Below, in pieces: positions 27,151 through 47,177 of a stretch of 64,000 nt of DNA. Both the position numbers and the translations under genes were made by a program. Source of the stretch: Paludibacterium paludis (GTDB lineage: Bacteria; Pseudomonadota; Gammaproteobacteria; Burkholderiales; Chromobacteriaceae). Below the pieces are notes generated by a model. It was not told where the DNA came from. It saw nothing but the letters and a program-made list of their open reading frames with translations, and did no database searches. Numbering within the stretch: the stretch's first letter is position 1; each line of letters opens with the position of its first letter. The stretch is from contig NZ_CP069161.1 in NCBI RefSeq assembly GCF_018802605.1, positions 1,674,001-1,738,000 of the forward strand, written 5' to 3'.

Positions 27151-28419
27151 ATGGTGTCCGAGCTTGCCGTTCATGGCGGTCGCCCTGTCCGTACCGCCGT
27201 TTGGCCGGGGTGGCCCGTCAGTTCATCCCGAACACTTGAAAATCTTCAGGCGGTTCTGGCCAGCGAGCGCTGGTCGATCAGCGGCCCATACCGCGGAACC
27301 GTTTCCTTCGAGCAGCGCTTCGCTTCGGCGTTCGCCGCGTTCACCGGCTCGCGGTATTGCGTTCCGGCCGCCTCCGGAACATCCAGTCTGACCATGGCGC
27401 TGGAGGGGGCGGGCGTCGGCGCGGGAGACGAGGTGATCGTGCCTGCCGTGTCCTGGGTCGCCTCGGCGTCCGCCGTGCTGGGCGTCAACGCTGTGCCGAT
27501 CCTGGTCGACATCGATCCGCGCACCGGATGTCTGGATCCGGCCGCCGTGGAGCGGGCGCTGACTCCCCGCTGCCGGGCCGTTACCGTGGTGCACCTGGGC
27601 TCGGCCGTCGCCGACCTGACCGCGCTGCTGAAGCTTTGCCAACGCCACGGCATTCCATTGATCGAGGATTGCGCCCAGGCGCATGGCGCGCGTTTCGCGA
27701 ACCGTCATGTGGGCACATTCGGCATCGCCGGCACGTTCAGCATGCAGCACAGCAAGTTGTTGACCAGCGGAGAGGGCGGCGCGGTGATCACCGATGACGG
27801 GGATCTGGCCAGAAGGCTGGCGCATTTGCGGGCCGATGGGCGCAGCTTCGGCGATGAACCGCCCGGGCCGGATCAGATGGAGCTGCAGGAGACCGCGGAG
27901 CTGATGGGGTCGAACTATTGCCTGTCGGAATTTCACGCGGCCATTTTGCTCGCCCAACTGGAAAAGCTGGAAGCCGAAAACACCACGCGCCGCGACAACG
28001 CGGCGCGCCTTGACGCGCTGCTGCGGGAGCTGGGCTGCGAGCCGCAGGCGACCTCGCCCGGCACCACCGCGCGCGCCTACTACACCTATGTGCTCGGATT
28101 GCCCGCTCCGGCGCTGGCCCGCGCGCCGGTGGAGCGCATCGCCGAGGCGCTGTCGGCGGAATTGGGGCTGACCTGCAAACCGATGTATGCGTCCTTGAAC
28201 CATTGCCGGCTGTACCGGCCGGAAACCCGCCGCCGTTTCGCTCTGAGCGAGGCGTTCCAGGAGGCGGTGCGGCCGAGGCGATTCGAACTTCCCGCCGCGG
28301 AAGCGTTCGCGCGCAGCCATATCGCATTGCCGCACCGGCTGTTGCTGGCCGATGCCTCCGCGATGGCGGATGTTCAGCGCGCCATGGATAAGGTGCTGTC
28401 CCATGTCGGCAGGTTGTGA
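27151..28419 (+). CDS. btrS: L-glutamine:2-deoxy-scyllo-inosose aminotransferase
   Basis: A 422-residue DegT/DnrJ/EryC1 (fold-type I) aminotransferase. It resembles BtrS/NeoB/StsC along its whole length: WPGWPVSSSRTLENLQAVL, RWSISGPYRGTVSFEQRFASAF, GDEVIVPAVSWVASASAVLGVNAVP, IEDCAQAHGA (Asp173), the PLP lysine Lys202 in SKLLTSGEGG, and GSNYCLSEFHAAILLAQLE. The family transfers the amide-derived amino group of Gln to 2-deoxy-scyllo-inosose, and the same enzyme also acts at the second position to give 2-deoxystreptamine. I chose ATG 27151 for its GGAGGTGG site; an in-frame GTG at 27112 lacks one. It is the first gene of the cluster. The BtrS family is the best fit, but sister aminotransferases of other aminocyclitols cannot be excluded from sequence alone. 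Confidence 0.9.
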   Translation: MVSELAVHGGRPVRTAVWPGWPVSSSRTLENLQAVLASERWSISGPYRGTVSFEQRFASAFAAFTGSRYCVPAASGTSSLTMALEGAGVGAGDEVIVPAVSWVASASAVLGVNAVPILVDIDPRTGCLDPAAVERALTPRCRAVTVVHLGSAVADLTALLKLCQRHGIPLIEDCAQAHGARFANRHVGTFGIAGTFSMQHSKLLTSGEGGAVITDDGDLARRLAHLRADGRSFGDEPPGPDQMELQETAELMGSNYCLSEFHAAILLAQLEKLEAENTTRRDNAARLDALLRELGCEPQATSPGTTARAYYTYVLGLPAPALARAPVERIAEALSAELGLTCKPMYASLNHCRLYRPETRRRFALSEAFQEAVRPRRFELPAAEAFARSHIALPHRLLLADASAMADVQRAMDKVLSHVGRL

Positions 28420-29068
28420 GCCCGCTGTCCGGCACCGTTTTGTCTTTATCCGGCATGCCGAGGCCCGCTGCAATCTTCAGTCCGCCGATGCGCGTATCGA
28501 TTCCGTCTCTCCTGACTCGCCGCTGACGGCGACCGGGGAGGAGCAGGCGCGGCTCCTGGCCGCGGGACTGCCGGAAGAGCTGGTCGGCGCCCGGGTGTTC
28601 TGCAGCCCGATGCGCCGGGCCGTGCTGACCGCCGGCGCGATCGCCGACCGGCACGGCGTGCCGCTGGCCGTGGATGGACGGCTCGAGGAGTTGAGGATCG
28701 CTTCCCCGCTGCGGCCGGCACTCGATGTCGCGGCGTGGGACAGCATGCTCGAGCGCAGACTGGCGCATCCGCGGCGCGAAGCCTTGCCGGGAGTGGAGAC
28801 GCTTTTGGCGCAGCGCGAACGGGTGGCGGATTTCTTGCTCGATCGGCATGCCGGCCGCGGGCGGGAGCTGTCGACACTGGTGGTGTCGCATGCTTTCACC
28901 ATCGAGTTGGCGATCAACCTGCTGTTGGGGCAGACGCCGCGGATGCTGGCGCGCTGGCGGCTGCGCATCAGCAACGCGGCTTTGCATGTCATCGAAAACG
29001 ATTATGTGGGCGGGCCTTCCCGGCTGATGCTGGTGAACGCGAAAAACCACCTCGGAACCCTGCTTTAG
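28403..29068 (+). CDS. Histidine phosphatase family protein
   Basis: A 221-residue member of the histidine-phosphatase (phosphoglycerate-mutase-like) superfamily. The catalytic RHAE motif is close to the N-terminus (FVFIRHAEARCN), with SPMRRAVLTAGAI as the second phosphate pocket, the acid/base region RLEELRI and the second histidine in VVSHAFTIEL. The start ATG 28403 overlaps the aminotransferase gene by 17 nt; the preceding frame from 28352 is out-of-character sequence. In butirosin and neomycin biosynthesis a phosphatase (BtrP/NeoI role) removes the 5''-phosphate left by the phosphoribosyl transfer, and this gene is a natural candidate because a phosphoribosyltransferase gene follows at 33583. 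The role is inferred from context, not proven. Confidence 0.78.
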   Translation: MSAGCEPAVRHRFVFIRHAEARCNLQSADARIDSVSPDSPLTATGEEQARLLAAGLPEELVGARVFCSPMRRAVLTAGAIADRHGVPLAVDGRLEELRIASPLRPALDVAAWDSMLERRLAHPRREALPGVETLLAQRERVADFLLDRHAGRGRELSTLVVSHAFTIELAINLLLGQTPRMLARWRLRISNAALHVIENDYVGGPSRLMLVNAKNHLGTLL

Positions 29069-29080
29069 GAACGGATAGTT

Positions 29081-32000
29081 ATGACTGCCAAATTGGAACG
29101 CCTGCGACAGCTGTCGCAACACCCAGAGTTTGCCGTGCTGGTGCCGCCGCTGGCGGCGCTGCCCACCGACGGGCTCGCCGCCGAAACCGAATGGACGCAA
29201 GGGCAGGCGCTGCTTGCCGTGTGCGCCGAGCGCGCCGCCGGCCGCGGCGACTGGCTGGAGCACGTCAAGAGCGTGTGCGGACCGGCGCCGTGGATCATCC
29301 GCAGCGCGGGGCTGGAGGACGGAGAGCACTTCGTCAACGCCGGCGGGTACGCCAGCCTGGTGTGCCGCAGCGAGGCCGAATTCGCCAACACCATCGCGGC
29401 GGTCGCGCTCAGCGGTTTCGCGGCGCAAGCCGTCGAGCAGCAGCGGCTCGCCGATCCGGCTTACCGGCCGCGGCCGATCGCCTGTTTCGCCCAGCCGCTC
29501 ATCGAGTCCGGGGACGACAGGGTCGACATGGAGCGGGCGCCTTACCTTTCCGCGGCCGACTGCGCCGGGCTGTTGGGCACGCTTGCCGCCCTGCATCGCC
29601 ATTTCGCCTTCGAAGCGCTGGATACGGAGTGGGTGCTGGAAACCGACCAGGGCATGGTTTCGGTCACCGGCCTGACCTTGGCCGGCGTCGACGGTGTGCG
29701 CGGACAATTGGCGTTCGGTTACGGTTTCGCCTCGGCGCAATCGCCGGGACTGCGCGCGAATTCGGTGGCGTATTGCTGGCCCTCGCTGGCCGCGCCCCTG
29801 TGGCAGGGCGAGCGTCTGCTCATGGCCCGCATCCGCAAGACCTGGCTGGTGCAGGTGCGCCCCGCTCCGGGGTATGCGCTGGAGCGCCGCGTGCGGCGGC
29901 TGACCGCCGCGGCGCGCGGGCAACTGTCACAGCGCTTGCGCGAGGTGCGGGCGGTGCCGGTGCTGCAACCGGCCGCGCCGCGGCAGGGCGGGTTTCTCGC
30001 GGCGGCGACGCTGGACGATGCCTGGAGCCGTTATCTGCGCCTGGCGCCCGAGGCGCGCGCGGAGCTGGCCGCGGTCTTCGTCGAGTCCGGCGTGGCCAGC
30101 GAGCATGCCGGGATCATGTTCCGACAGCAGCGTTTGCCGGTGTTCCGTGTCGAACTGGCCGCGCTGCCGGCGGTTTCGGGCGTGGTGGTCGATGCCGTCG
30201 GCGAGCGGGCCTGGTTCGGTACGGTGACCCCCTCGCTTGAGCCCGAGACGGAGGAGGCCGACTGTGTCGACCTGCCCGCCGGTGTCCGCTGTTGGTTCGA
30301 CGATGAGGCGCCGGCGCTGGATGGTCCGGATGCCGAACGGGCGCAGGCGCGTTTGCGCATGGCGCTGGCCGGCCTGCCGGCCGCCGCGGAGCATGATCGG
30401 GCGGCCATCGAGCAGCGCAGCGCCTGGCCGTCGAGCAGCTGGCTGGAGTGCGATGGCGGGGTACGCAGCCCGAGCTTGCTCGGCTGGCTGCTCAGCCATG
30501 ACCGCGCGGCGCTTCAGGCATGGCGGTCGAACTGGGAAACCGTGCCCGAAGCGGTCGCGTATGTCCATGCCGAGCATGCCTGCCGCGATCCGCGGGCGGA
30601 GTTGCCCGTGCTGTGCCGCGAATGCCCGTCCCTCGCGACATCCCTTCCCTCGGTGCGCGACATCCGGCTGGCCATGGCGTTGTCCGGGGCCGAGCGTTGG
30701 GCGGCAAGGTTGCCGGGCACAAGGCTGGCCGCGCTCGCGGGCACCGCACTGGAAAACCCGGCGGCGCGCGAGCAGCTGGAATGCGTGCTGCGGGTGCTCG
30801 ACGATACCGGGGTGATGCCGATTTACGATGATGAGGACCGGATCGCCATTGTCGGTGCCCTGTGCGCCGCGGTGGACCACGGCATCGCGCCGGCCGATCT
30901 GTGGCGCGCGGTGCGTCGCGGCCAGCTTGCGCCCACCGCGCTGGCGAGTCTGGTGGCGTCCCCCCGCGCCTTCGCCGCGTATCTGGAGTTGCTCGGGCCG
31001 CTCGAAACGTTCCGCGCCGCCGCTGCGCTGGCGGGAGGCAACGAAGCGGCGGCGTTGCTGGAGGCCTCATCGGCCCTGACGCGGGTCTTGCGGGAGAACG
31101 GCCTGTCGACTCTGGAAGGTTTGTGCCGGATCGATCAGGTCGATACCTGGGATCAGGTGCTCAAGGCCGTTCTGACCGACGTGGTGGAGCGGCGCGACCC
31201 CGCCGCGCACCGGCGCTATCTGGATCTGTTGGCCGGCTGGATCGGTTTTGCGCGGCTCCAGGGCATTTCCGCGTCCGACGATGCCGCTTTGGCGGTGTTT
31301 CTGGAGTGGCTGGCCCTGGCGCGGGAAGCGCCGGTGCCGGACGCCTTCCTGCTGGAACTGGAGGAAGAGGAGGCGGAGCGTCTGGGCGACGAGTTCTTGC
31401 GCTGGCAGGTGCTGATGCCGATCGCCGGAAGCGGGGGGGTGGAGGCGTTGCCCATGCAGAACGCCCACCAGCTGCACAACTTGCTGCACCAGTGGATGCT
31501 GGCGCGTTTTCGTGCCGAGGCCGGCGCCGAGTTGCCGGGATGCTTGCGCCAACTGCTGACCATCGCCGACGGATTCGGCGACGCCAGATCGTGCCTGCTC
31601 AGGCTTGGCCGTTCGGTGCTGGAGATCTCCCTGCCGATGGTGGTGCACAAGGCGAGTTTCCTGTTCGACGACCGGGAACTGACGGTCGAATTCGCCGAGC
31701 TTCCCGACGCGCCGGAGGAGGAAATCGGCCGCCTGCTGGTGTTCGAGGCGCTGGCGCGGCGGATCGGCGAATGGGAGCCGGCCTGGCGCGTTTCGCTGAA
31801 CCGGGTCTGCGTGCTGGGAACCTGGACGCTGTTTTTGCGCGTGAGGCGCAGCGACGACGAGCGGCTGCGGGCCGGCGATGTGCGGCAGATGCTGATCTGG
31901 CTGCGTGTGCTGTTCGATACGGCGTACGACTTTTCTTATGTGGACAACGAGGAGGTCGAAGAGGCGTACGCGCTGTTCGGCGAGTCGCCCTGGCCCGATC

Positions 32001-32755
32001 TGTTCCGTTTTTATGCCGATTACCGCGAGGCGATCGACTTTTCCATGCAGCGTGCCACGGTGTATGCCTTGCCGTTCGCCACCACGCTGGCCTCGGTGTG
32101 CCAGGACGAAGCGGTGCGAGAAGCGGTGGCGGACGCCTATTTGTCCGGCTTCGAGGGAGCCTGGCAGGCGTTTCTGGACACCTGCGCGGAACTTGAGCAA
32201 CCGGATGAGGATGTCGGGGACTGGTCCAGCCGTTATGCCGCGGCCGGGCAACTGGGACTGCTGCTCGCCGCCGTGTGGCCGCGGCAAGCGTTGGCGCGGC
32301 TCGCGCAAGCGCCCGTGTCCGATATCGCCGGCGAGCGCATCGGCGCCAGTTTGCTGCATCGCCGCGATCTTGCCGGAGAGTTGCGCCGACTGATCGCGCC
32401 GGGCGCGGCGCCGGCCGGGGCCGCGCTGCGGGCGCTGGCCCTGAGCCGGGCGCCGTGCCGGGTGGTGGAGGCGGCGACAGCCATCGAGATCGGCGAAGAG
32501 GTGGCCCGGGCCGGACGCGCGTTCAAGCGCTGCAAAGAGTATCTGCTCGCGCATCATGCCGATCTTTTGCCGGAGCGCGTGTGCGAGCGGTTGATCGCCC
32601 AGCTCGATCTCGTGCCGCGCGGCGTGACGCCCGCGGCGGAGGCCAGTATCGGGCGGGCGCTGGAACGGGCGGCGGAGCGACGCGCCCGGTTCCATCTGGC
32701 CGAGGTGGATTATGTCGCCATCGTTCGCGCATTCAGCACGGAGATTACCGCATGA
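29081..32755 (+). CDS. 1224-residue protein with PPDK/PEP-synthase-like N-terminal domain
   Basis: I do not recognise this protein as a whole. Residues about 70-265 resemble the ATP-binding domain of pyruvate phosphate dikinase/PEP synthase: PWIIRSAGLEDGEHFVNAGGYASLV recalls the family's 'vRSSa..ED...asfaGqy', and IRKTWLVQVRPAPGY recalls the ending 'iylVQaRP'. Residues 300-1224 are Ala/Leu/Glu-rich, probably mostly helical, with no His-swivel or PEP-binding motif that I can find. There is no transmembrane segment or signal peptide. An AGGAAC-type site precedes ATG 29081, and its stop overlaps the next gene (ATGA). I recall no counterpart in the butirosin, neomycin, kanamycin or gentamicin clusters. 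Possible roles include ATP-dependent phosphorylation of the antibiotic (self-protection), ligation of an acyl group, or scaffolding; none is established. Confidence 0.75.
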   Translation: MTAKLERLRQLSQHPEFAVLVPPLAALPTDGLAAETEWTQGQALLAVCAERAAGRGDWLEHVKSVCGPAPWIIRSAGLEDGEHFVNAGGYASLVCRSEAEFANTIAAVALSGFAAQAVEQQRLADPAYRPRPIACFAQPLIESGDDRVDMERAPYLSAADCAGLLGTLAALHRHFAFEALDTEWVLETDQGMVSVTGLTLAGVDGVRGQLAFGYGFASAQSPGLRANSVAYCWPSLAAPLWQGERLLMARIRKTWLVQVRPAPGYALERRVRRLTAAARGQLSQRLREVRAVPVLQPAAPRQGGFLAAATLDDAWSRYLRLAPEARAELAAVFVESGVASEHAGIMFRQQRLPVFRVELAALPAVSGVVVDAVGERAWFGTVTPSLEPETEEADCVDLPAGVRCWFDDEAPALDGPDAERAQARLRMALAGLPAAAEHDRAAIEQRSAWPSSSWLECDGGVRSPSLLGWLLSHDRAALQAWRSNWETVPEAVAYVHAEHACRDPRAELPVLCRECPSLATSLPSVRDIRLAMALSGAERWAARLPGTRLAALAGTALENPAAREQLECVLRVLDDTGVMPIYDDEDRIAIVGALCAAVDHGIAPADLWRAVRRGQLAPTALASLVASPRAFAAYLELLGPLETFRAAAALAGGNEAAALLEASSALTRVLRENGLSTLEGLCRIDQVDTWDQVLKAVLTDVVERRDPAAHRRYLDLLAGWIGFARLQGISASDDAALAVFLEWLALAREAPVPDAFLLELEEEEAERLGDEFLRWQVLMPIAGSGGVEALPMQNAHQLHNLLHQWMLARFRAEAGAELPGCLRQLLTIADGFGDARSCLLRLGRSVLEISLPMVVHKASFLFDDRELTVEFAELPDAPEEEIGRLLVFEALARRIGEWEPAWRVSLNRVCVLGTWTLFLRVRRSDDERLRAGDVRQMLIWLRVLFDTAYDFSYVDNEEVEEAYALFGESPWPDLFRFYADYREAIDFSMQRATVYALPFATTLASVCQDEAVREAVADAYLSGFEGAWQAFLDTCAELEQPDEDVGDWSSRYAAAGQLGLLLAAVWPRQALARLAQAPVSDIAGERIGASLLHRRDLAGELRRLIAPGAAPAGAALRALALSRAPCRVVEAATAIEIGEEVARAGRAFKRCKEYLLAHHADLLPERVCERLIAQLDLVPRGVTPAAEASIGRALERAAERRARFHLAEVDYVAIVRAFSTEITA

Positions 32756-33582
32756 CGCAACGTCCTTTGATCGCGTTCCAGCTGGCGGCCGACGCCGCCT
32801 ACGCCCGGATGTGCACGGCCATGGTGCACGCCATCCGCCATTTTCATCCGGATGCGCCGGTCCGGCTGTACCGGCCGGAAGCCGACCGGGAAGCCTTTGC
32901 CCATCTGGAAGGCAAGGCGGAACTGCTGCCGCCGCCGCCGAGCACCTTGCCGTTCGGCGAATTCCATCCCCTGATCTGGACCAAGATGGAGGCCGCCGCC
33001 TGGGAGGGACCCGACGTCGTCGTGGTGCTCGATCCGGATCAGATCCTGTACCGCCCGATGCGCGAGCTGTGCGAACGGTTCTGGGCCAGCGACGCGGACT
33101 TCGGCAGCACGACGGACGATGAGGATGTGCGCCATCAGTTCCGCCAGTTGCCCGCCATTCTGGAACCGGTGGCCGACCGGGCGGGCATCAGCAGCGGCAC
33201 CATGCTGATCCGGCCGTCAGCGCGCTTTTACGCCAGTTTGCGCGAGGTCGCCGAAAACTTCGCCCAGCACGCGAAGTACCCGGATCAGGCGGTACTCAAT
33301 GTGCTGGCCTATGTCACCGGCCGATGGATGTATTTCGATGAGGTATTGCAGATGCCGCACCTGTCCCCGGGCATCCTCGACGAAGCGCACGACGCCTGCC
33401 TGATCCATTTTTATACACCGCGGCCGGCATGCTTCGGAGCCAGTCCGCGCCGGGCGAAGGAGGAATCGTTCGCCGAGGCGTGCGCCGAGTTCGCCGAGCT
33501 GACCGGACGGCCTTATCCGGAGCAGAGGGTCGAGCGCGATTTCCTGGTCCGTCTGGAAAACCGCCTTGCTAAGGCCGGTTGA
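32752..33582 (+). CDS. GT-A glycosyltransferase (GT8-like)
   Basis: A 276-residue nucleotide-diphospho-sugar transferase-like protein. The N-terminal Rossmann part (LIAFQLAADAAYARMCTAMVHAIRHFHPDAPVRLYRP) leads to the metal-binding DxD motif in VVVVLDPDQILYRPM (about residue 93), and ISSGTMLIRPSARFYASLREV plus YPDQAVLNVLAY correspond to acceptor/donor loops of GT8-like enzymes. It is cytosolic. ATG 32752 overlaps the stop of the 1224-residue gene, so the two are coupled. The known ribostamycin/neomycin pathway uses two GT-B glycosyltransferases, both already represented in this cluster; this extra GT-A enzyme has no assigned step and may add another sugar. Confidence 0.78.
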   Translation: MTQRPLIAFQLAADAAYARMCTAMVHAIRHFHPDAPVRLYRPEADREAFAHLEGKAELLPPPPSTLPFGEFHPLIWTKMEAAAWEGPDVVVVLDPDQILYRPMRELCERFWASDADFGSTTDDEDVRHQFRQLPAILEPVADRAGISSGTMLIRPSARFYASLREVAENFAQHAKYPDQAVLNVLAYVTGRWMYFDEVLQMPHLSPGILDEAHDACLIHFYTPRPACFGASPRRAKEESFAEACAEFAELTGRPYPEQRVERDFLVRLENRLAKAG

Positions 33583-37434: not shown

Positions 37435-37730
37435 CCATCTCTTTCGACTTCGTTAAGCACTTCATCATTAAAACCGCATGCGATACCACCGGCGATGAGC
37501 CGGAGGAATTGCTGGAGAGCGGGAGGCTGGAAATCGCACCGCGCGATGCGATCGAATTCGTGGTCAGGCTGGAAACCACCTTCGATTGCGTGTTGGGCCG
37601 GTTGAGTTATGCGCCCTTGTCGGTGGACATCGATGAACTGGCGTTCCGGGTGCTCGCCGCGCGGGAGGCGGTAGCGACACGCCCGTCCGAGCGCGCCGGC
37701 AAGGATGGCGCGTATGCCGACCCCGCCTGA
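37431..37730 (+). CDS. Acyl-carrier-protein-like small protein lacking the attachment serine
   Basis: A 99-residue protein starting at GTG 37431 (GGAGG 5 nt upstream, 4-nt overlap with the deacetylase stop). Residues 8-75 follow the acyl carrier protein plan: helix FVKHFIIKTACDTTG, a loop EELLESGRLEI, then the helix that normally begins with DSL reads DAIEFVVRLETTFDCVL. The serine that would carry phosphopantetheine is therefore alanine. A last helix (DIDELAFRVLAAREA) precedes a polar tail. Butirosin uses the carrier protein BtrI to build its side chain, but no acyl-ligase or acyltransferase partner (BtrJ, BtrH) is seen here. It may be a degenerate carrier acting as a scaffold. The ACP-like fold is my reading, not a certain homology. 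Confidence 0.55.
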   Translation: MTISFDFVKHFIIKTACDTTGDEPEELLESGRLEIAPRDAIEFVVRLETTFDCVLGRLSYAPLSVDIDELAFRVLAAREAVATRPSERAGKDGAYADPA

Positions 37731-39150: not shown

Positions 39151-40043
39151 CCCACACGGTGCATCGCATCGAAAAGGCGGCGGCGTGGCCGCCGGTTACC
39201 CGCCGGGTGCGCCGCTATCGCAATATTGTCATCAAGGCGGCCTGTAATCTGCGCTGCAGTTATTGCGAAATGAAAAAAGCCCGGGTCGATGTCGGGGCGA
39301 CCATTGCCTCGGTCGAGCGCATCATGCGCCGCTTTTCCCCCGAGGACACCCTGTTCCGCGTCGAGGCCGACGGCGAGATCACGCTGTATCCGCAAATCCT
39401 GGATTTTCTGGCGGAGCGGGTACGGACCGACGGTTATGCGATCGAAGTGCTGACCAACGGCACGCGTTTTCCCGATTGCCTGCGCCCGGGCCTGCTCTGG
39501 GTGGTGTCCGTCGACGGACACACGGCGGGCATGAATGAAGCGCGCGGTCTGAGCCAGGCCCAGGTCGACGTGATCCTCGATCACGCGGTGGCGCTCAAGG
39601 CGGAGCTGCAGTGCGTCTACCACGGCCAGGGGGTGGAGCAGATCAACGCGTTCATCGCCGCGCTGGACGCGCGCGGTTTCGCCGGACGGCTGCATTTTCT
39701 GCCGTTGCTGGCGACGGAGGGGCGGCCGCTGACCGTGCATCTGGATTATGCCCAGCTGCGCAAGGCCCCGTTTCTGGAGCGCGAGGAGTTTTTCCGGCGT
39801 TGGGACTATATCTTCCGTCACGGCCGCCGCGGCGATTTCCTCTGCGACCAGATCCTCAACGGATTCAACTACTACGTCGACGGGGACAAGATCTCGATGG
39901 TCAAGTGCGACTGCTATTCGCCGGTGCCGGACGAACTCGAAATCGAAGGTCTGCAGAGCGAGCGCGAGTACGACAACTTTCCGTGCGGCACCTGTCTGTC
40001 GCATCAGGAGTTCAACAACCAGCGCGACCGCATGGCGATCTGA
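39138..40043 (+). CDS. Radical SAM enzyme with C-terminal Cys cluster (NeoN-size)
   Basis: A 301-residue radical SAM protein. The [4Fe-4S]-SAM motif is CX3CX2C at Cys36, Cys40 and Cys43 (AACNLRCSYCEM). A second cysteine set near the C-terminus (Cys236, Cys257, Cys259, Cys283, Cys286) suggests a SPASM/auxiliary cluster or a hydrogen-donating cysteine. Its size and site resemble NeoN, the radical SAM epimerase that converts neomycin C to neomycin B at C-5''', but I have not aligned it. The AprD4-type C3' dehydratase is an alternative, less likely because its dehydrogenase partner is not encoded here. ATG 39138 has AGGAG 7 nt upstream and overlaps the DOI synthase end by 13 nt. Confidence 0.72.
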   Translation: MSVVTHTVHRIEKAAAWPPVTRRVRRYRNIVIKAACNLRCSYCEMKKARVDVGATIASVERIMRRFSPEDTLFRVEADGEITLYPQILDFLAERVRTDGYAIEVLTNGTRFPDCLRPGLLWVVSVDGHTAGMNEARGLSQAQVDVILDHAVALKAELQCVYHGQGVEQINAFIAALDARGFAGRLHFLPLLATEGRPLTVHLDYAQLRKAPFLEREEFFRRWDYIFRHGRRGDFLCDQILNGFNYYVDGDKISMVKCDCYSPVPDELEIEGLQSEREYDNFPCGTCLSHQEFNNQRDRMAI

Positions 40044-40067
40044 GTGCGGGGGCGGCGAAAGGACGGT

Positions 40068-41318
40068 ATGCGCGTTTTGCGTTTGACGCCATTTTTTCAT
40101 CATCCCGATGCGGACGCCTGGCCGGCCGAATACGATTCGGTCGGCGGCATGCAGATCCAGGCCTGGCGGCAGGCCATGTGGCTCGCGCAGCAGGGGGTGA
40201 GCCAGCATGTGATGACCATCGGGTTTCCCGGTTTGCCGCGGCTGCGCGATCTTCACGGCAACTTGCGGGTGGAGCGGGCCTATCTGCCGCTGCCCAGATT
40301 CCGCTCCGAACTGACCGGATTGTGGGGGCTGACCCAGTCCTGGGCGCTGGCCACCTTGCTGTCCGTCCGGCGCAGGGCCCGGCGTGAGCCGTTCGATCTG
40401 GTGCATGCGCATCTGGACGGCCAGATTCCCGCGCTGCTGGTGGCGTGTCTCGCGCCTTTTCTGCTGCGTCGGCCGATGGCCCTGACCATCCATTGCTCCC
40501 GTTTGTCCGTGTACCGGCCGATGTCGGCGTGGGACCGGGCGACCCACGGTCTGGCATGCCGTCTGGAGCGCAAGGCGCTGGCCGCCGCCGCCGTCTCCAT
40601 CGCCTTGACCGAGCGCACCGCCCGGGTGATCGGGCCGCATGCCCGGCGCGTCGAGGTGGTGCCCGACGTGGTCGACCCGCGGCAGTTCCAAGCCCCCTGC
40701 GAGGGCGACATCGAGGCGTTTCGGCGGCGTTACCGGCTGGACGGCCCGGTTGTCGGCTTTGTCGGGCGCATCGCCAAGGAAAAGGGATGGCCGCACTTCG
40801 TGGAGCTGGCCGCCCGGTTGCGGGATCCCTCGTTGCGTTTTCTGGTGGTGGGCGACGGCCCGCAGCGCGAGAGGCTCGAACAGGCGGTGGCTAACGCGGG
40901 GTTGCAGGACCGGTTCACCGTGACCGGTTTCATTCCCAACGACAAGGTGCCGGCCGCGCTGGCGGCCTGCCGGGTCGTGGTGATGCCGTCGGAGCATGAA
41001 GAGTTCGGCGGGGTCGCGATCGAGGCGATGGCCGTCGGAACGCCGGTCGTCGGCTACGCGGTCGGCGGCATCAAGGAAATCCTCGGCCGTCTCGCGCCGG
41101 ACCGGCTGGCCCCTCCGGGCGATGTGGAGCGGCTGGGCGAGAGGGTGCGCGCCGTGCTGGACGAACCATCGGCCGGCGTTCGCTGCGCTGCGGAGCCGTC
41201 TCCCATCCATGCTTTCGCGCCGGACACGGTGCTGCCCAGACTCGCCGCGCTGTATCGCGAGCTGGCCGGTTTGTCCGCGCCGAAAGCGCCTTCCACTCAT
41301 TCAGCAGGGATGATCTGA
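40068..41318 (+). CDS. btrM: 2-deoxystreptamine glycosyltransferase (paromamine-forming, GT4)
   Basis: A 416-residue GT-B glycosyltransferase. The N-terminus MRVLRLTPFFHHPDADAWPAEYDSVGGMQIQ is characteristic of the 2-DOS transferases (BtrM, NeoM, KanF, TobM1 group), which join UDP-GlcNAc to 2-deoxystreptamine. The donor domain has VVPDVVDPRQF, VGFVGRIAKEKGW, and the E-x7-E type motif PSEHEEFGGVAIEAMAVGTPVVGYAVGG. I chose ATG 40068 for the AAAGGA site 5 nt upstream; an in-frame GTG 40044 is weaker. It lies directly between the two radical SAM genes. Whether the enzyme is selective for GlcNAc cannot be said from the sequence. Confidence 0.9.
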   Translation: MRVLRLTPFFHHPDADAWPAEYDSVGGMQIQAWRQAMWLAQQGVSQHVMTIGFPGLPRLRDLHGNLRVERAYLPLPRFRSELTGLWGLTQSWALATLLSVRRRARREPFDLVHAHLDGQIPALLVACLAPFLLRRPMALTIHCSRLSVYRPMSAWDRATHGLACRLERKALAAAAVSIALTERTARVIGPHARRVEVVPDVVDPRQFQAPCEGDIEAFRRRYRLDGPVVGFVGRIAKEKGWPHFVELAARLRDPSLRFLVVGDGPQRERLEQAVANAGLQDRFTVTGFIPNDKVPAALAACRVVVMPSEHEEFGGVAIEAMAVGTPVVGYAVGGIKEILGRLAPDRLAPPGDVERLGERVRAVLDEPSAGVRCAAEPSPIHAFAPDTVLPRLAALYRELAGLSAPKAPSTHSAGMI

Positions 41319-41319
41319 C

Positions 41320-42027
41320 ATGTTTTCCATGGTAGAGATCGAAGTCAACTCGCGTTGCAACCGCCGCTGCGATTATTGCCCCAATGTCATCGAGCCGCGC
41401 AAAGCGCCCAAGATGATGAAACCGGAGCAGTTCGAGCGCATCCTGGATCGGCTGGTGGAGGCGGATTTCTCCGGGCGGCTGTCTTACCACTTTTACAATG
41501 AGCCGCTACTGCATCCGAAGTTGCCGGACTTCGTCGGGCGCGTGCGCGAGCGTCTGCCGCGGGTGCGGCAAATTCTCTACAGCAACGGCGATTTTCTCAC
41601 CGACGAGAAATACCATTTGCTCCACGAGCGCGGCATCGAGCGTTTCATCATCACCCAGCACGACGGCAACCCCGGCGAGCCCAAGCCCAATCTGGTCTGG
41701 CTGACGCCTCAGTTGCTCAAACTGACCAGCCGGGCCGGCACGGTGGAAGCCGGCCCTCCGGTGGCCCCCGGCGTGTCATGCTTCGCGCCTTCGGACATGC
41801 TGATCATCACGATTACCGGCAACGTGGTGCTCTGTTACGAAGACAGCCGGGAAGAGGTCGTGATGGGCAATGTCTTCGATACACCGATCATGGACATCTG
41901 GATGTCTCCCGCGTTCCGGGCCGCCCGCGAAGCGCTGACGGACGGCGACCGCACCGTGTCGGAAATCTGCCGGCGCTGCAATAACCGGGCCCACCAGACA
42001 AGCGAGGCGTTCGATTATGTCCTGTAA
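41320..42027 (+). CDS. btrN: 2-deoxy-scyllo-inosamine dehydrogenase (radical SAM, BtrN)
   Basis: A 235-residue radical SAM dehydrogenase that oxidises 2-deoxy-scyllo-inosamine at C-3 to amino-DOI. The radical SAM motif is Cys13, Cys17, Cys20 (SRCNRRCDYCPN), and auxiliary cluster ligands are Cys154, Cys172, Cys217 and Cys220. From memory, the auxiliary ligands of B. circulans BtrN are C169, C187, C232 and C235; the intervals 18, 45 and 3 residues are identical here. FSMVEIEVNS at the N-terminus and FDYVL at the C-terminus also parallel BtrN (FSMIEVEVNS, YDYVL). In many actinomycete 2-DOS clusters this step uses an NAD-dependent dehydrogenase instead, so the choice of BtrN links this cluster to the butirosin branch. 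It overlaps the next gene by 11 nt. Confidence 0.93.
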   Translation: MFSMVEIEVNSRCNRRCDYCPNVIEPRKAPKMMKPEQFERILDRLVEADFSGRLSYHFYNEPLLHPKLPDFVGRVRERLPRVRQILYSNGDFLTDEKYHLLHERGIERFIITQHDGNPGEPKPNLVWLTPQLLKLTSRAGTVEAGPPVAPGVSCFAPSDMLIITITGNVVLCYEDSREEVVMGNVFDTPIMDIWMSPAFRAAREALTDGDRTVSEICRRCNNRAHQTSEAFDYVL

Positions 42028-43027
42028 CCGTACCGTTCTGATCGAGCGCTACCCGGACAGTTTCGACAGGAGGCAGTGGGGCGGCATCGAGACCGCCTAC
42101 TGGAACCTCGCCCGTGTGCTGCCATCCTGCGGTGTCGAGGCGGTCTGGTATACCGCCCGGGAGTGCCCGACGCTGGCCAGTCTTGCGCGGCGCGCGCAGG
42201 AGGTCCGGGCGGCGGCGGTGATGCCGCTGGTCGACCACGAGCTGTTTCGCACGCCCCAGGCCGCCCCGGCCGGTCTTCGGCGCCGCACCGTGCGTGTCTG
42301 GCATGACGTGTCGGCGATTTCCCCGCGGTTTTCCACGCTGACAGGCTGCGACGCGCACCGTCCCGGCTCGGCCGCCGTTTGCCGGGCGGAAGCGGCCGCG
42401 CCGTCCGCCAGCGCCGCGGATGTCTTTTTTTACGAAGAGGCCTGGACCCATTGCTTTCCCAACCGGCGCTACATACCGTGGGCGGCGGATCATGTTCCGG
42501 CGCGCGATTATCACAATCCGTCCGGCCCGCTGGTGCTGCTGGCCGGAAAAATCCCGCTCGACACCCTGCGGCCTGTCGTCGAGGCCTGCCTGGCGCGCGG
42601 CTTGCGGTTGCGCGTGATATTCAACAACTGGTCGAAGCTGGGACTGGAAGCGAAAACCTATTTCACCGCCCTGGGGCTGGGGGAAGGCCACCGGGTGTTC
42701 GACATCTACGATATCGAGCGGGACCACGAACGCATCTTCGGCGGTGCCTGCGCGGTGCTGGTGCTCAGTCATTTTCATGAAACCTTCAATTTTCTGGCGG
42801 CCGAAGCGGTGCAACTGGGCGTGCCGGTCGTGGCGTTTGTCCGGTCCGGCGCCACGCGGCGTTTCGCCTCTCATCTGGAGGAGGACGGCGACGGGCTGAT
42901 CGACTGGCTGGATGACGGGGGCCTGGCCGCGCTGCGACCGCTGCCGCGCTCCGGCTGGTCATGGCGCGATGTCGGTTCCGCCTATGCCGAATTGTTGGGT
43001 TGTCTGGAGGCCGAGCCCGCGTGGTGA
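42017..43027 (+). CDS. Second GT-B glycosyltransferase of the cluster
   Basis: A 336-residue protein with GT-B features. The N-terminus RRQWGGIETAYWNLARVLPSCG matches the acceptor-domain loop of GT4-like enzymes, and the C-terminal half has LVLLAGKIPLD, a donor-side FDIYDIERDHERIF and the sugar-nucleotide loop LSHFHETFNFLAAEAVQLGVPVVAF (E-x7-E). In neomycin biosynthesis a second glycosyltransferase (NeoF/Neo15 role) attaches GlcNAc to ribostamycin; this gene is the obvious candidate, though the family is divergent. It starts inside the btrN gene (ATG 42017, 11-nt overlap). Confidence 0.75.
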   Translation: MSCNRTVLIERYPDSFDRRQWGGIETAYWNLARVLPSCGVEAVWYTARECPTLASLARRAQEVRAAAVMPLVDHELFRTPQAAPAGLRRRTVRVWHDVSAISPRFSTLTGCDAHRPGSAAVCRAEAAAPSASAADVFFYEEAWTHCFPNRRYIPWAADHVPARDYHNPSGPLVLLAGKIPLDTLRPVVEACLARGLRLRVIFNNWSKLGLEAKTYFTALGLGEGHRVFDIYDIERDHERIFGGACAVLVLSHFHETFNFLAAEAVQLGVPVVAFVRSGATRRFASHLEEDGDGLIDWLDDGGLAALRPLPRSGWSWRDVGSAYAELLGCLEAEPAW

Positions 43028-43061
43028 GGCGAAACGTCATTTCGAGAAACGAGGGCACAGG

Positions 43062-44609
43062 ATGTCGATTCAAGCTGAACGACCGCTGGGAGCGAGGCAC
43101 TTTCACGGATTCGGGGATGTGCCGGGAGAACTTGAGGCGGATGCCTGCATCATCGGCAGCGGAGCCAGCGGCGCCGTGGCGGCGGATGCCCTGCGCGATT
43201 GCGGCTGGTCCGTCATCATGGTCGAAGAAGGGAGCCTGCTGCGCCGCGATGTCTCCCAGGAGGAAGTGGACGATGCCTCGCCGGCCGCCGAGGTTCGCGG
43301 CGAGCAAGGCTGGGAAGACAAGGGATGGCCATGGAGCACGCGCAATGTGGGCGGCGGCACCCTGTTTTACGGCGGAGCGTCGTTCCGCTTCCCCGACTGC
43401 GATTTCGACGCGTCTTCCTGGCTTCCCGGGCATGGCCTGGAGGTGGCCTGGCCCATCGGCCCCGCCGATCTGGCCCCCTATTACGAACTGATCGAGCGGC
43501 GCATCGGGGTCAGCGGCGGCCGTCCGGACGAACCGGCGGGCGGGCGGGGCAGTCCTTTGCCGATGACGTTGCCGGCCGAGCGCATGTCGGCGGCGGCAAA
43601 ACGCTTGGGCTACGCGCCGTTTCCCACTCCGGTGGCGGTCAACGGGGGGGCGTGCAATCTGGAGAAACGCTGCATCGATTACCAGTGTCCGAATGGCGCG
43701 AAGGGCGACGTTGTGCGCGTTTATCTCAAAAAACTGGCCGATGATCCCGATTTCCTGCTGCTGTCGGGCATCCGGGGCGTCGCTCTGGAGCAGGACACGG
43801 CGGACCGGGCCGCCGCGCTACGCTGCCTGGACCTGGCCAGCGGCGTCACCCGCCGCGTGCGCGCGCGTCATTTTTTCGTGGCGGGCAACGCCATCCAGAG
43901 CGCCGCGCTGCTCTTGCGGTCGGTGACGCCGTTCGCGCCGGAGGGCATCGGCAACCGCCACGATCTTGTCGGCCGCGGCCTGTGCATGAAGCTCAGTCAG
44001 TACGTGCGCGGCATGACGGAGGTTCCGCCGGATGCCGATCGCCATCCGGTGGGGCTGCGCGGACCGTTCTCCACCCTGGCCATCCTCGACCATTATCTGG
44101 ACGCCGGCTGTCCGACCGGCATGGGCGGGCTGATTTACGAAGCGCGTTCGCTGACCTTGCCTCCCGGGCCAGTCCGGCAGTTGCCGATGGAGCTGGAAAC
44201 CATCATCGCGGATACGCCTTCGTACCATAACCGGGTACGCCTCTCGGGCAATCGCGATGCGTGGGGGATGCCCAAAATCGTCATCGACTACCGGGTCGAT
44301 CCGGTGGATCTTGCCCGCCTCGCCTATATGGCCGGCCGATGCGAACGCATTCTGCGCGAGGCCGGCGTGGACGAGGTGAAGTCCAAGCGCGCCCGCTCGG
44401 AGCATGGCAGCACCCATCTGCATGGTACCTGCCGCAGCGGCACCGATCCCGCGCGTTCGGTGCTGGATCCGCATTGCCGCGTGCATGACCTCGAGAATGT
44501 TCATGTCGTGGACGGCAGCTTCATGCCGTTTCCCGGCGGTCTTAATCCCACTTTGACCATCCAGGCCAATGCCTTGCGGGTGGCGCTGCATGTCGCGGGA
44601 GCCTGTTGA
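43062..44609 (+). CDS. GMC-family FAD-dependent oxidoreductase (6'-dehydrogenase role)
   Basis: A 515-residue glucose-methanol-choline oxidoreductase. The FAD motif GSGASG lies at residues 32-37, with a typical GG-rich FAD loop TRNVGGGTLFYGGASFR. The C-terminal catalytic pair is His452/His454 (STHLHGTCRSG) and Asn495 (GGLNPTLTIQANALRVA), preceded by NVHVVDGSFMPFP. NeoG/BtrQ-type enzymes oxidise the 6'-hydroxyl of paromamine (and C-6''' later) so that a class III aminotransferase can aminate it; the aminotransferase is at 35450. GAGGG lies 6 nt before ATG 43062; an open frame from 42912 is inside the preceding gene and not used. Confidence 0.85.
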   Translation: MSIQAERPLGARHFHGFGDVPGELEADACIIGSGASGAVAADALRDCGWSVIMVEEGSLLRRDVSQEEVDDASPAAEVRGEQGWEDKGWPWSTRNVGGGTLFYGGASFRFPDCDFDASSWLPGHGLEVAWPIGPADLAPYYELIERRIGVSGGRPDEPAGGRGSPLPMTLPAERMSAAAKRLGYAPFPTPVAVNGGACNLEKRCIDYQCPNGAKGDVVRVYLKKLADDPDFLLLSGIRGVALEQDTADRAAALRCLDLASGVTRRVRARHFFVAGNAIQSAALLLRSVTPFAPEGIGNRHDLVGRGLCMKLSQYVRGMTEVPPDADRHPVGLRGPFSTLAILDHYLDAGCPTGMGGLIYEARSLTLPPGPVRQLPMELETIIADTPSYHNRVRLSGNRDAWGMPKIVIDYRVDPVDLARLAYMAGRCERILREAGVDEVKSKRARSEHGSTHLHGTCRSGTDPARSVLDPHCRVHDLENVHVVDGSFMPFPGGLNPTLTIQANALRVALHVAGAC

Positions 44610-44611
44610 TC

Positions 44612-45619
44612 ATGATTCTGGCGGACGGTGTAGGCAAAAGTTATCTTGTGCATCGGCGCGGCGAGGCGCTGGGTTCCGCGATAGCTGCGCTGTGGCGCAG
44701 GCGGTACGAGGAAGTGGCCGCCTTGCGGGAGGTGAGCTTCCGTATCGAAGAGGGCGAACGGGTGGGCGTGCTGGGGCCCAATGGCGCCGGCAAAACGACG
44801 CTGATGAAATTGCTCAGCGGTCTACTGCATCCGAGCGCCGGACACTTGCGGGTGGAAGGACATGATCCGTCCCGGCGCGAGGATGCCTTCCTGAAGCGGA
44901 TCGGCCTGGTCATGGGCAACAAGGGGCAACTGATCTGGGATTTACCCCCGGTGGACACCTTCGACATGATCCGGGTGCTGTTTCGCGTGCCCCGGGCCGA
45001 GTATCGGCGTTCGTTGGCGGAGCTGGCTGAACTGCTGCAATTGGGCGACATCATGACCAAACCCACGAGGCAGCTGTCGCTGGGGGAGCGGATGCGTTGC
45101 GAGGTGGCCGCCTCCCTGATCCACCAGCCCCGCGTGCTGTTCCTCGACGAGCCGACCATCGGTCTTGACGTATCGATGCAGGCGGCATTACGCGATTTCG
45201 TCGCCGAGTACAACCGGCGGCGCGAAGCGACGGTGCTGTTGACCTCGCATTACATGGAGGACGTGCGCGTCATCTGCCCCCGCGTGATTATCGTGGATCA
45301 AGGTTCCATTCTTTACGACGGCGAGCTGCGCCGTTTCGTGGCGCACCAACGGCCCGAGCAGATTCTGACGTTTTCCCTGAACGAGAAAGCCCGGCAGACG
45401 GAACTCTCCCGTTTCGGAACGCTGATGCAGGGGGATGAAGAGCGCACCAAGCTGATCGTGCCGCGCGATCAGGTGCCGGAGGTGGTGCGTCTGCTGCTCG
45501 ATCAGCGACTGGCGCTGGATCTGACCATCGAGGATCCGCCCTTGGAAGAGCTGTTGCGCCAGATGTTCGGCAGGACGCCCGCGCCGGCGGTGCGTCAGGA
45601 TGAGGAGGCGACGACGTGA
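44612..45619 (+). CDS. ABC transporter ATP-binding protein (antibiotic export)
   Basis: A 335-residue ATPase. Walker A is GPNGAGKTT (55-63), the signature region is LSLGERMRCEVAASL (LSGGQ replaced by LSLGE), Walker B is RVLFLDEPTIGLD and the switch histidine is in LLTSHYMEDV. The length and the C-terminal extension of about 100 residues suit the ABC-2/DrrA-like drug or polysaccharide exporters. It forms one unit with the two permeases that follow (GTGA overlap). Because it closes the biosynthetic operon, it probably exports the aminoglycoside and may give part of the self-protection. ATG 44612 is chosen; TTG 44606 is possible but less likely. Confidence 0.9.
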   Translation: MILADGVGKSYLVHRRGEALGSAIAALWRRRYEEVAALREVSFRIEEGERVGVLGPNGAGKTTLMKLLSGLLHPSAGHLRVEGHDPSRREDAFLKRIGLVMGNKGQLIWDLPPVDTFDMIRVLFRVPRAEYRRSLAELAELLQLGDIMTKPTRQLSLGERMRCEVAASLIHQPRVLFLDEPTIGLDVSMQAALRDFVAEYNRRREATVLLTSHYMEDVRVICPRVIIVDQGSILYDGELRRFVAHQRPEQILTFSLNEKARQTELSRFGTLMQGDEERTKLIVPRDQVPEVVRLLLDQRLALDLTIEDPPLEELLRQMFGRTPAPAVRQDEEATT

Positions 45620-46389
45620 TCGCGGCGCTGGTGAGGATCCGCTTGCTCGAAACGCTGGCCTACCGCGCGGAGTTTCTCCTGTGGCTGGTCACGCTGACGA
45701 TGCCTTTGGTGATGCTGGTGTTCTGGCGCTCCGTCGCGCAGGATGGCGCGTTTCACGGGTATACCCCGGAGGACTTCAATGTTTACTATCTGGCGGTGCT
45801 GGTCTGTACCTTGCTGACCAATTGCAACAGCGTCTGGGAGGTCAATGAAGACATCCGCACCGGCGAGCTGTCGTTCTGGCTGATGCGCCCTGTCCATCCT
45901 TTCGTCAATTATATGACCATCACCTTCGCCGAACTCGGCTTGGGGCTGCTGGTCGCGTTGCCGGTCTTTTTTCTGGCGCTGGGAATGGGCGGTGACGGGC
46001 CGCCGCGGGAGTGGCTGCGGTTCGCGCTGTTGCCGCCGGCCCTGCTGGGCGGTTTGCTGATCAATCAGGCGATTCACCTGCTGATCGGCAGTCTGGGCTT
46101 CTGGATCGAACGCTCGCTGGTGGTTCACAAGCTCTATGCGACGGCCAGCGCGGTGCTGTCCGGCTATATGTTTCCGCTGGCGTTTTTGCCGGACCGGGCA
46201 AAGGACATGGCCGATCTGCTGCCGTTCCGTTTTGTCATCGCCTTGCCCGTGGAGCTGTTCACCGGCAAGGTGTCGCTCGATGAGGCCATCGGTCTGATGG
46301 CCTGGCAAGCCCTTCTGGTGGCGGTGCTGTTTGCCGCCGCGCTTCTGGTCTGGCGGCGAGGTGTCCGCCGTTACTCGGCGTTTGGATGA
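45616..46389 (+). CDS. ABC-2 type permease (DUF990-like)
   Basis: A 257-residue six-helix membrane protein. Helices include FLLWLVTLTMPLVMLVFW, YYLAVLVCTLLTNCNSVWEVN and GLLVALPVFFLALGMG, with the short motif EDIRTGELSFWLMRPVHPF in the N-terminal half, reminiscent of ABC-2 permeases of the DUF990 kind. It uses GTG 45616, overlapping the ATPase stop, with GAGGAGG upstream. It works as a pair with the next permease. Confidence 0.85.
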   Translation: MIAALVRIRLLETLAYRAEFLLWLVTLTMPLVMLVFWRSVAQDGAFHGYTPEDFNVYYLAVLVCTLLTNCNSVWEVNEDIRTGELSFWLMRPVHPFVNYMTITFAELGLGLLVALPVFFLALGMGGDGPPREWLRFALLPPALLGGLLINQAIHLLIGSLGFWIERSLVVHKLYATASAVLSGYMFPLAFLPDRAKDMADLLPFRFVIALPVELFTGKVSLDEAIGLMAWQALLVAVLFAAALLVWRRGVRRYSAFG

Positions 46390-47177
46390 TGACCCACTAC
46401 CTGTCTGTTGTTCGCATGGCGTTGATGCTCGGCTTGAAGCGGTCGATGCAATACCGCTGGGATTTCCTGATCGAGGGATCCTTGTCGCTGGCCATGGCCG
46501 CGTTGCAACTGCTCCCCTTGCTGGTCCTGTTTTCCGAGCGCAGCTCGGTGGCGGGGTGGTCGGTGAATCACATGCTGGTGCTGATGGGCTGGTACATGAT
46601 GGTGCGGGCGCTGGTGGAGGGGGTGGTGGCGCCGGGCCTCGCCGCATCGGTTGCCGGCATACGCACCGGACAGTTCGATTACACGCTGATAAAACCGGTC
46701 GACTCGCTGTTCCTGTGTTCGCTGGCCGAACTCAAACCCTGGAAAATCATCGATTTTCTCTTCGGTCTTGGCCTGGCCGGCTATGCGCTGTCCCGCCTGG
46801 ATGTCGCGCCGTCAGCCGTCGATGTGCTACTGGCCGCGGTGTTGTCCGTGGCCGGGGTGGCCGCCGCCTATGCGCTTTTCGTGCTGGCGGTCGCCGCGTC
46901 GTTCGTGCTGGTGCGCATCCAGAATCTGACCAATGTGCTGTCATCGTTTCTGGATTTCGCGCGCTGGCCGATCCAGGCGTTCGACCCGGTCTGGCGGCTG
47001 GTGTTCAGTGTGGTGATCCCTCTGGGTGTGATGACCAGTTACCCGGTCATGGCGCTGCTTGGCATGCTCAGTCTGCCGCTGGCCGCCGCTTCCCTGGCGG
47101 TGGCCGCGCTGTTTTTCGCCGCGGCGCGTCTGGCGTGGAGCCGGGCGTTGCGTGGATACCGCTCGGCGTCCAGTTAA
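46386..47177 (+). CDS. ABC-2 type permease, last gene of the cluster
   Basis: A 263-residue six-helix protein, paralogous in layout to the preceding permease (SVAGIRTGQFDYTLIKPVDSLFLC corresponds to its EDIRTGELSFWLMRP motif). The two permeases and the ATPase give a heterodimeric export complex in the inner membrane. ATG 46386 overlaps the previous stop (ATGA); a second ATG follows directly. No clear terminator was found downstream; a 12-bp palindrome (GCTCCCGGGAGC, 47198-47209) is present without a T-run. Confidence 0.85.
   Translation: MMTHYLSVVRMALMLGLKRSMQYRWDFLIEGSLSLAMAALQLLPLLVLFSERSSVAGWSVNHMLVLMGWYMMVRALVEGVVAPGLAASVAGIRTGQFDYTLIKPVDSLFLCSLAELKPWKIIDFLFGLGLAGYALSRLDVAPSAVDVLLAAVLSVAGVAAAYALFVLAVAASFVLVRIQNLTNVLSSFLDFARWPIQAFDPVWRLVFSVVIPLGVMTSYPVMALLGMLSLPLAAASLAVAALFFAAARLAWSRALRGYRSASS

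Follow-up and report, generated by a model that had tools for sequence, protein, structure and literature searches.

A seventeen-gene operon of Paludibacterium paludis with a predicted pathway to a neomycin-B-like aminoglycoside

Known 2-deoxystreptamine systems and the Paludibacterium operon

In Streptomyces, the third step of 2-deoxystreptamine (2-DOS) biosynthesis is carried out by a NAD-dependent enzyme of the NeoA type, and in the butirosin (btr) pathway of Bacillus circulans ribosylation involves BtrL and BtrP. The Streptomyces clusters of the neomycin family all encode the aminoglycoside phosphotransferase APH(3'), according to the accessible part of PMC11405602. Among Gram-negative bacteria, an aminoglycoside-like cluster with a neamine gene set was described from antiSMASH in 2021 for Pseudomonas Ps639 (PMC8719888, excerpt), and one aminoglycoside cluster is counted for Photorhabdus temperata subsp. 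thracensis DSM 15199 in the available text of PMC4971723; clusters of this kind are thus already in print as predictions and the kind is not new. Here we describe a window of 64,000 bases of the Paludibacterium paludis genome (bases 1674001-1738000 of a one-contig genome of 4,069,732 bases), in which seventeen plus-strand genes at window positions 27151-47177 form an operon with little or no intergenic space. The operon encodes homologues of the enzymes for 4,5-disubstituted 2-DOS aminoglycosides and is likely, judging from its gene content, to make and export a neomycin-B-like compound, for which a dikinase-based protection is proposed.

The operon shares with the neo cluster of Streptomyces fradiae and with the paromomycin, lividomycin and ribostamycin clusters a 2-deoxy-scyllo-inosose (DOI) synthase, an L-glutamine:DOI aminotransferase, a 6'-aminotransferase, a PIG-L deacetylase, a GMC oxidoreductase, a phosphoribosyltransferase (PRTase), a phosphatase and an ABC exporter, and also a NeoN-type epimerase and a large protein of 1224 residues. 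Unlike the Streptomyces neo clusters, it would use a BtrN-type radical S-adenosylmethionine (SAM) enzyme for the third step, has no detected gene of the aphA or aacC type, carries an extra glycosyltransferase and resides in a Gram-negative host. BtrC and BtrN from the butirosin cluster are the best solved relatives of its cyclase and dehydrogenase, but in comparison with the generally known butirosin gene set no acyl-side-chain genes are recognised, and a pseudotetrasaccharide is suggested by the NeoN-type epimerase. The Ps639 cluster is likewise Gram-negative, with a predicted DOI synthase, PRTase, 6'-aminotransferase, deacetylase, glutamine aminotransferase, dehydrogenase and N-acetylglucosamine transferase; it has a 2-oxoglutarate-Fe(II) oxygenase that is absent from the operon, whereas a NeoN epimerase and BtrN are not mentioned for it in the portion of PMC8719888 available. 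The related operons of Xenorhabdus and Photorhabdus differ by having no extra glycosyltransferase.

In the literature covered, which lies mostly outside the subscription journals, no description turned up of a Gram-negative NeoN, or of these clusters encoding a dikinase or a ribosyltransferase with a kinase fold. Titles and abstract beginnings on neomycin and Photorhabdus name no such cluster, and 2-DOS is unmentioned in the literature found on Photorhabdus and Xenorhabdus clusters.

Operon architecture and host

The operon of seventeen genes, first proposed from the bare sequence, was confirmed: with the longest possible starts 11 of the 16 junctions overlap, several of them by 4 bases, and with the preferred starts 10 of 16. 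The longest gap precedes the DOI synthase gene and measures 148 bp to the first ATG or 262 bp if the start compatible with BtrC is taken. All 17 reading frames are intact, with ribosome-binding-like sequences at several starts. In a comparison with records of a plasmid collection, the 16S rRNA showed an identity of 91.8% with Neisseria gonorrhoeae and of about 90% with Burkholderia. The host is Gram-negative, as the original prediction had supposed, and from these identities it is probably betaproteobacterial.

Enzymes of the 2-DOS core

Family scans took in part of the open reading frames of the window, and all enzyme families named in the original prediction were recovered by Pfam, the PRTase by a weak match (E 0.002) together with a structural one; matches to the phosphoribosyltransferase and Nucleotid_trans families count as below cut-off. 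The first gene (27151..28419) encodes a DegT-family aminotransferase, predicted to be an L-glutamine:DOI aminotransferase of the BtrS/NeoS type. Its best PDB match is the L-glutamine:DOI aminotransferase 5w70 (E 2.6e-149), it also matches 2c7t (E 6.9e-86), the SMQHSK motif is present and the counterpart in Xenorhabdus szentirmaii is 69% identical.

The predicted DOI synthase (37993..39150, with a longer start at 37879 possible) belongs to the dehydroquinate-synthase-like family and its best PDB match is BtrC (E 9.8e-75), ahead of the best dehydroquinate synthase (AroB; E 1.5e-51). In a tree, it groups with nine DOI-synthase-like proteins, apart from three AroB proteins whose branch has a support of 1.0. 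At 21 diagnostic sites, defined as those where BtrC and an annotated DOI synthase of a Streptomyces plasmid agree against the three AroB, the cyclase is DOI-synthase-like at 13 and AroB-like at 2. The genome's own AroB, over a larger set of sites, is BtrC-like at 4 and AroB-like at 90. The third step is attributed to a BtrN-type radical SAM/SPASM dehydrogenase (41320..42027), whose sole two PDB matches are the BtrN structures 4m7s and 4m7t (E 1e-62). Because the best PDB matches of these two proteins are BtrC and BtrN, both fall within aminocyclitol biosynthesis, the point on which the original prediction could have failed. By homology, the operon thus has all three enzymes of the 2-DOS pathway, the DOI synthase, the L-glutamine:DOI aminotransferase and the 2-deoxy-scyllo-inosamine (DOIA) dehydrogenase.

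Predicted neamine and ribosylation steps

The attachment of the first sugar is predicted for a GT4 glycosyltransferase (40044..41318; PF00534, E 9.1e-36), which at family level would correspond to the 2-deoxystreptamine N-acetylglucosaminyltransferase of the NeoM type. A PIG-L protein (36697..37434; PF02585, E 7.2e-17), which has an HPDD motif, is the predicted N-acetylparomamine deacetylase. The predicted 6'-oxidase is a GMC oxidoreductase with a GSGASG motif (43062..44609, start uncertain; PF05199, E 1e-27, and PF00732, E 3.2e-11), and the predicted C-6' (and C-6''') aminotransferase is a class III enzyme (35450..36700) whose best PDB matches are the neamine transaminase 6cbk (E 1.5e-64) and other C-6' aminotransferases. 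The pair of 6'-oxidase and 6'-aminotransferase is therefore recognised in the sequence, the oxidase by its GMC family only. The matches of the L-glutamine:DOI aminotransferase and of the 6'-aminotransferase are as specific as those to BtrC and BtrN. The ribostamycin pathway suggested originally is supported.

Ribosylation is assigned to a predicted neamine phosphoribosyltransferase of the BtrL/NeoL type (33613..35457), which in the predicted model has a PRTase fold joined to an aminoglycoside/choline-kinase fold. Its structural match is to a PyrR-like domain, two of its relatives carry the name neamine phosphoribosyltransferase, and the phosphoribosyl pyrophosphate (PRPP) motif is kept in 19 of 19 sequences. 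The catalytic Asp of the HxD motif in the kinase-fold part is found in none of the 19 sequences at the candidate position 488 and in 7, that of the window included, at position 490; by this alignment the C-terminal part does not conserve the catalytic Asp of an active aminoglycoside phosphotransferase. The union of the two folds in one ribosyltransferase is new here as a prediction from the model. The following dephosphorylation is predicted for a histidine phosphatase of the BtrP type (28403..29068, with a longer start at 28352 possible; PF00300, E 1.3e-26; RHAE motif), whose role as 5''-phosphoribostamycin phosphatase is predicted from its position and the logic of the pathway. Both the phosphoribosyltransferase and the 5''-phosphatase are thus present as homologues, the phosphatase by family only.

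Putative NeoN-type epimerase and additional glycosyltransferases

A radical SAM protein (39138..40043), predicted to be a C-5''' epimerase of the NeoN type, is 59% identical to the radical SAM protein P0027 of S. fradiae. NeoN takes neomycin C as substrate and uses Cys249 as hydrogen donor, as given in the accessible part of PMC10991966, and cysteines 26, 30, 33 and 249 of P0027 agree with the numbering used there. The protein of the window has the CxxxCxxC motif (CNLRCSYC) and a cysteine at the position equivalent to Cys249, so that by sequence it has the features of a NeoN epimerase; it has no PDB relative at E 0.001. Among 34 NeoN-like matches, this position is occupied by Cys in 29, of which two (P0033 and P0034) are remote and poorly aligned, by Ser in 3 and by Gly in 1, with a gap in the last. 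The NeoN-like protein with its Cys249 hints at a product beyond ribostamycin, toward a neomycin-B-like compound, which strengthens the neomycin that was at first named only as possible; as NeoN acts on neomycin C, ring IV should also be made.

Within five Xenorhabdus/Photorhabdus loci, Cys249 is conserved in two and replaced by Ser in three, the latter being the Photorhabdus genes at L005 (7825-8727), L006 (7807-8709) and L012 (7806-8708). Ser is also found at this position in Photorhabdus bodei, Sphingomonas zeae and one metagenome protein (P0003, P0006 and P0014), while P. cinerea and Xenorhabdus retain Cys, so this variation constitutes a natural experiment on the epimerase.

The candidate ring-IV transferase is a second glycosyltransferase of 336 residues (42017..43027), with weak GT4 Pfam matches below cut-offs, which co-occurs with NeoN in the five Xenorhabdus/Photorhabdus loci; both are missing in Sodalis. 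The operon also has a putative extra glycosyltransferase (32752..33582), Nucleotid_trans-like (PF03407, E 0.0011, below cut-off) and with a DPD sequence as DxD motif. Searches for this protein in the five Xenorhabdus/Photorhabdus loci and in Sodalis found no counterpart, and neither did those in a further 60 genomes of the family, a further 368 of the class, and plasmids.

The 1224-residue protein

The largest protein of the operon (29081..32755) had been left unexplained in the original prediction, as had the DUF6137 protein and the weak Nucleotid_trans match. From its predicted fold and conserved residues, it would be a dikinase composed of ATP-grasp and phosphohistidine swivel domains with a large C-terminal part. 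The N-terminal third has the predicted fold of an antibiotic phosphotransferase, with the ATP-grasp and swivel arrangement of PPDK and rifampin phosphotransferase (RPH), and the catalytic His and the ATP-binding residues of these dikinases are present. H342 and the other catalytic-type positions, seven in all, are invariant in 61 of 61 sequences, their correspondence to RPH/PPDK residues being assigned by motif. In RPH, the His domain lies at the C-terminus, as described in the available text of PMC4844700. In the 1224-residue protein, it comes immediately after the ATP-grasp domain, an order shared with PPDK, with the His at residue 342 and more than 800 residues after it, and on this sequence arrangement it is not a rifampin phosphotransferase proper. 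We predict from the model a divergent ATP-grasp/phosphohistidine enzyme that resembles RPH, which is new as a prediction.

Relatives of this protein are found in S. lividus (lividomycin; P0082), in S. ribosidificus and in S. fradiae (P0111, 40% over a third of the query), and Pseudomonas encodes relatives at 31-32%. The deposited RacL of S. ribosidificus (P0123) has only 724 residues and its second half is unlike the relatives, pointing to a frame error in this entry. A protein of the DUF6137 family, to which no role is assigned, is encoded at 37431..37730 (PF19634, E 3.4e-27), and some Photorhabdus relatives of the 1224-residue protein hold PF19634 within the same chain.

Export and proposed self-protection

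The last three genes encode an ABC exporter, with an ATPase (44606..45619; PF00005, E 4e-28; Walker A GPNGAGKT) and two ABC2-type permeases (45616..46389 and 46386..47177; PF06182, E 3.6e-25 and 1.4e-46, respectively). In family scans, none of the 17 operon products matches an APH or AAC family, and the in-cluster aphA gene, for APH(3'), of the Streptomyces neomycin-family clusters is absent. No match to PF02522 is found genome-wide. In the two 16S copies read, the sequence is the usual CCCGTCACACC, so the decoding site is unaltered on the A1408 side, which is the only side covered, the A1492-1493 side not having been located by pattern. With neither an APH or AAC in the operon nor PF02522, and with the A1408 side unaltered, some other protection is needed.

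In four of the five Xenorhabdus/Photorhabdus loci, a gene of the alkaline phosphatase family, whose product has a signal-peptide-like start, lies directly after the exporter genes on the opposite strand (for example on the minus strand at L003:16146-17591 and L012:15992-17485); it was not found at the X. beddingii locus.

Relatives and genomic setting

Each of the five Xenorhabdus/Photorhabdus loci (L003, L004, L005, L006 and L012) holds sixteen of the 17 genes with their order kept, so the arrangement is not due to chance; identities per gene range from 45 to 77%, with 75-76% for BtrN. The plasmid pHS1 of Sodalis praecaptivus (L016:7280-22193) has 12 of the 17 genes in the same order and is without exactly the 6'-aminotransferase, the GMC oxidase, NeoN and the second and extra glycosyltransferases, losses that fit the division of labour proposed among the enzymes. 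The predicted product of the Sodalis operon, from its gene content, is a ribosylated paromamine. The gene order is kept across at least three bacterial families. NeoN-like proteins are also found by name in Roseateles, Mitsuaria and Sphingomonas.

Rarity outside actinomycetes and Bacillus, which had been stressed from the sequence alone, stands in part: Gram-negative clusters are in print as predictions, in the parts of PMC8719888 and PMC4971723 available, but the operon genes are rare in the genomes searched. Of 398 genomes sampled from the phylum, one holds the 1224-residue protein, and of 369 genomes of the class, one holds DUF6137, in both cases this genome; the NeoN-like protein occurs in 2 of 61 genomes of the family, this one and another whose partial match (E 4.9e-4) was set aside. 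Plasmid records hold no match for NeoN, and the 1224-residue protein is found there in Sodalis only.

Several other loci hold single members or neighbours of the gene set. An annotated DOI synthase, all that plasmid records yielded toward an actinobacterial neomycin cluster, adjoins an MFS transporter on a plasmid of Streptomyces sp. NBC_00015 (L017:19977-22690), with no other operon gene in the 41 kb read. BtrN-like proteins (35-39%) occur in Bacteriovoracaceae/Halobacteriovorax (L008:10001-13710, L009:10001-13691, L010:2738-6415 and L013:10001-13676), each with an ABC ATPase gene 2.3 to 2.4 kb further on and otherwise without operon genes, save a distant DegT protein in L008. The operon of Photorhabdus sp. 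CRCIA-P01 is preceded, in the same orientation, by fatty-acid/polyketide-like genes with a class III aminotransferase domain (L031:6919-11954, minus strand). In X. beddingii (L004 and L033), the DegT aminotransferase and GT4 genes each give two separate tblastn pieces, and this copy may be decaying or have sequence errors.

The Paludibacterium operon is GC-rich relative to its right flank, a contrast that alone is no proof of transfer. Of five other genomes of the genus, one holds a match to the upstream dehydrogenase at E 1e-60, and the downstream chemoreceptor has relatives at only 33-42%, so no empty insertion site is demonstrable. Rfam and tRNA scans found nothing in the window, and defence-system models matched none of three proteins. 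An open reading frame of 694 residues with a good coding score at 49-2133 has no Pfam match. Gene models at 28735-30237, 30237-30812 and 30862-32193 had no family match and were dropped, the 1224-residue frame having the coding GC3 pattern, while a model at 33583-35454, initially without a family match, was retained with a later start.

Proposed pathway and alternative explanations

In the proposed pathway, the DOI synthase would convert glucose 6-phosphate to 2-deoxy-scyllo-inosose, and amination, BtrN-type dehydrogenation and a second amination would give 2-DOS. Transfer of N-acetylglucosamine, deacetylation, 6'-oxidation and 6'-transamination would then lead to neamine, which would be phosphoribosylated by the PRTase with the kinase-fold domain and dephosphorylated to ribostamycin. 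A second glycosylation with repeated deacetylation, oxidation and transamination would produce neomycin C, and the NeoN-type enzyme would epimerise it at C-5''' to neomycin B. For self-protection, we propose that the 1224-residue protein phosphorylates a pathway compound inside the cell, harmless until outside, that the three ABC proteins export the product and that it is uncapped outside the cell, in this host by a phosphatase encoded elsewhere. This cycle of capping, export and uncapping is the least certain part of the explanation. The analysis shows the gene content and order, the homologies, the predicted folds and the residues that are conserved; the individual reactions in this organism, the end product and the self-protection are inferred from them.

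Several observations weigh against this explanation. The original claim that every step is encoded holds at the level of specific matches for the 2-DOS core and the 6'-aminotransferase, while family and position are the only basis for placing the two glycosyltransferases, the deacetylase, the GMC oxidase and the phosphatase. The kinase-fold match of the PRTase protein has low TM-scores (0.25/0.44). Foldseek on the 1224-residue protein gave 0 matches at E 0.001 and no dikinase among the matches listed, its profile retrieved no PDB sequence and a Pfam search of the window protein found nothing. Six APH-family matches lie in the genome, all outside the window, and could protect the host, and the alkaline phosphatase was not found in this window or at the Sodalis locus. 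At the sites where three AroB agree and BtrC alone differs, the cyclase is BtrC-like at 20 and AroB-like at 26. These 26 residues are what favours a cyclase that makes a different cyclitol in an operon unrelated to 2-DOS, which we regard as very improbable given that its best match is BtrC, given its tree position and given that the best solved relatives of three neighbours act on the same pathway.

The extra glycosyltransferase, missing from all relatives examined, could make the product something other than neomycin. A 2-DOS aminoglycoside different from neomycin B, either ending at a ribostamycin-like compound or bearing a further sugar added by this enzyme (32752-33582), is rather unlikely but gains from the fact that ring-IV transfer by the 336-residue protein is itself conjectural; an epimerase with Cys249 takes neomycin C (PMC10991966, in part) and would be pointless to keep without ring IV. 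A silent operon, or one that makes an aminocyclitol conjugate with a non-antibiotic role, would accord with the upstream region, where no promoter-like site was scored in a weak scan, with the two genes that X. beddingii has in two pieces each and with the lack of a known product for any Gram-negative relative found; the intact frames of 17 of 17 genes, the ribosome-binding-like sequences and the order conserved in at least three families make it quite improbable.

The role of the 1224-residue protein is where the choice is closest, and we give only slightly less than even weight to a biosynthetic enzyme of the ribosylation branch, for instance one that supplies or handles a phosphorylated ribosyl donor or acceptor, or to a protein that has lost catalysis. 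It is retained in the reduced Sodalis operon alongside the PRTase and the phosphatase, and those of its actinobacterial relatives that are named belong to producers of ribosylated aminoglycosides, in which APH and AAC genes do serve as self-resistance (PMC6804068 and PMC11405602, in the parts available). The N-terminal third has the predicted fold of an antibiotic phosphotransferase with all seven catalytic-type positions conserved, which argues for a protective dikinase instead. By analogy with BtrL and BtrP of butirosin, the PRTase and the histidine phosphatase would also suffice for ribosylation.

In its most extended form, the proposal of a dikinase-based protection becomes a phospho-prodrug circuit that replaces APH and AAC. 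The dikinase would place a phosphate cap via phosphohistidine, the ABC exporter would carry the capped compound out and an outside phosphatase would arm it; the PRTase would grip its acceptor by a retired aminoglycoside-kinase domain, and the extra glycosyltransferase may add a sugar unseen in known neomycins. Such a circuit would extend through Gram-negatives, from the symbionts of nematodes and insects to this free genome in the beta branch. We offer it as speculation that is unlikely to hold in all its parts.

Biological meaning

The natural Cys-to-Ser variants of the epimerase and the reduced operon of Sodalis make the order of the steps testable by comparison. If the favoured explanation is true, it would account for the role of a large protein common to producers of ribostamycin, lividomycin and neomycin, and for the recognition of neamine by the ribosyltransferase. 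The neomycin drug family would then reach far beyond its best-known producers, perhaps with an unusual form of producer protection, and neomycin-type antibiotics would have a second home among Gram-negative bacteria, organisms whose ribosomes are themselves targets of these drugs.

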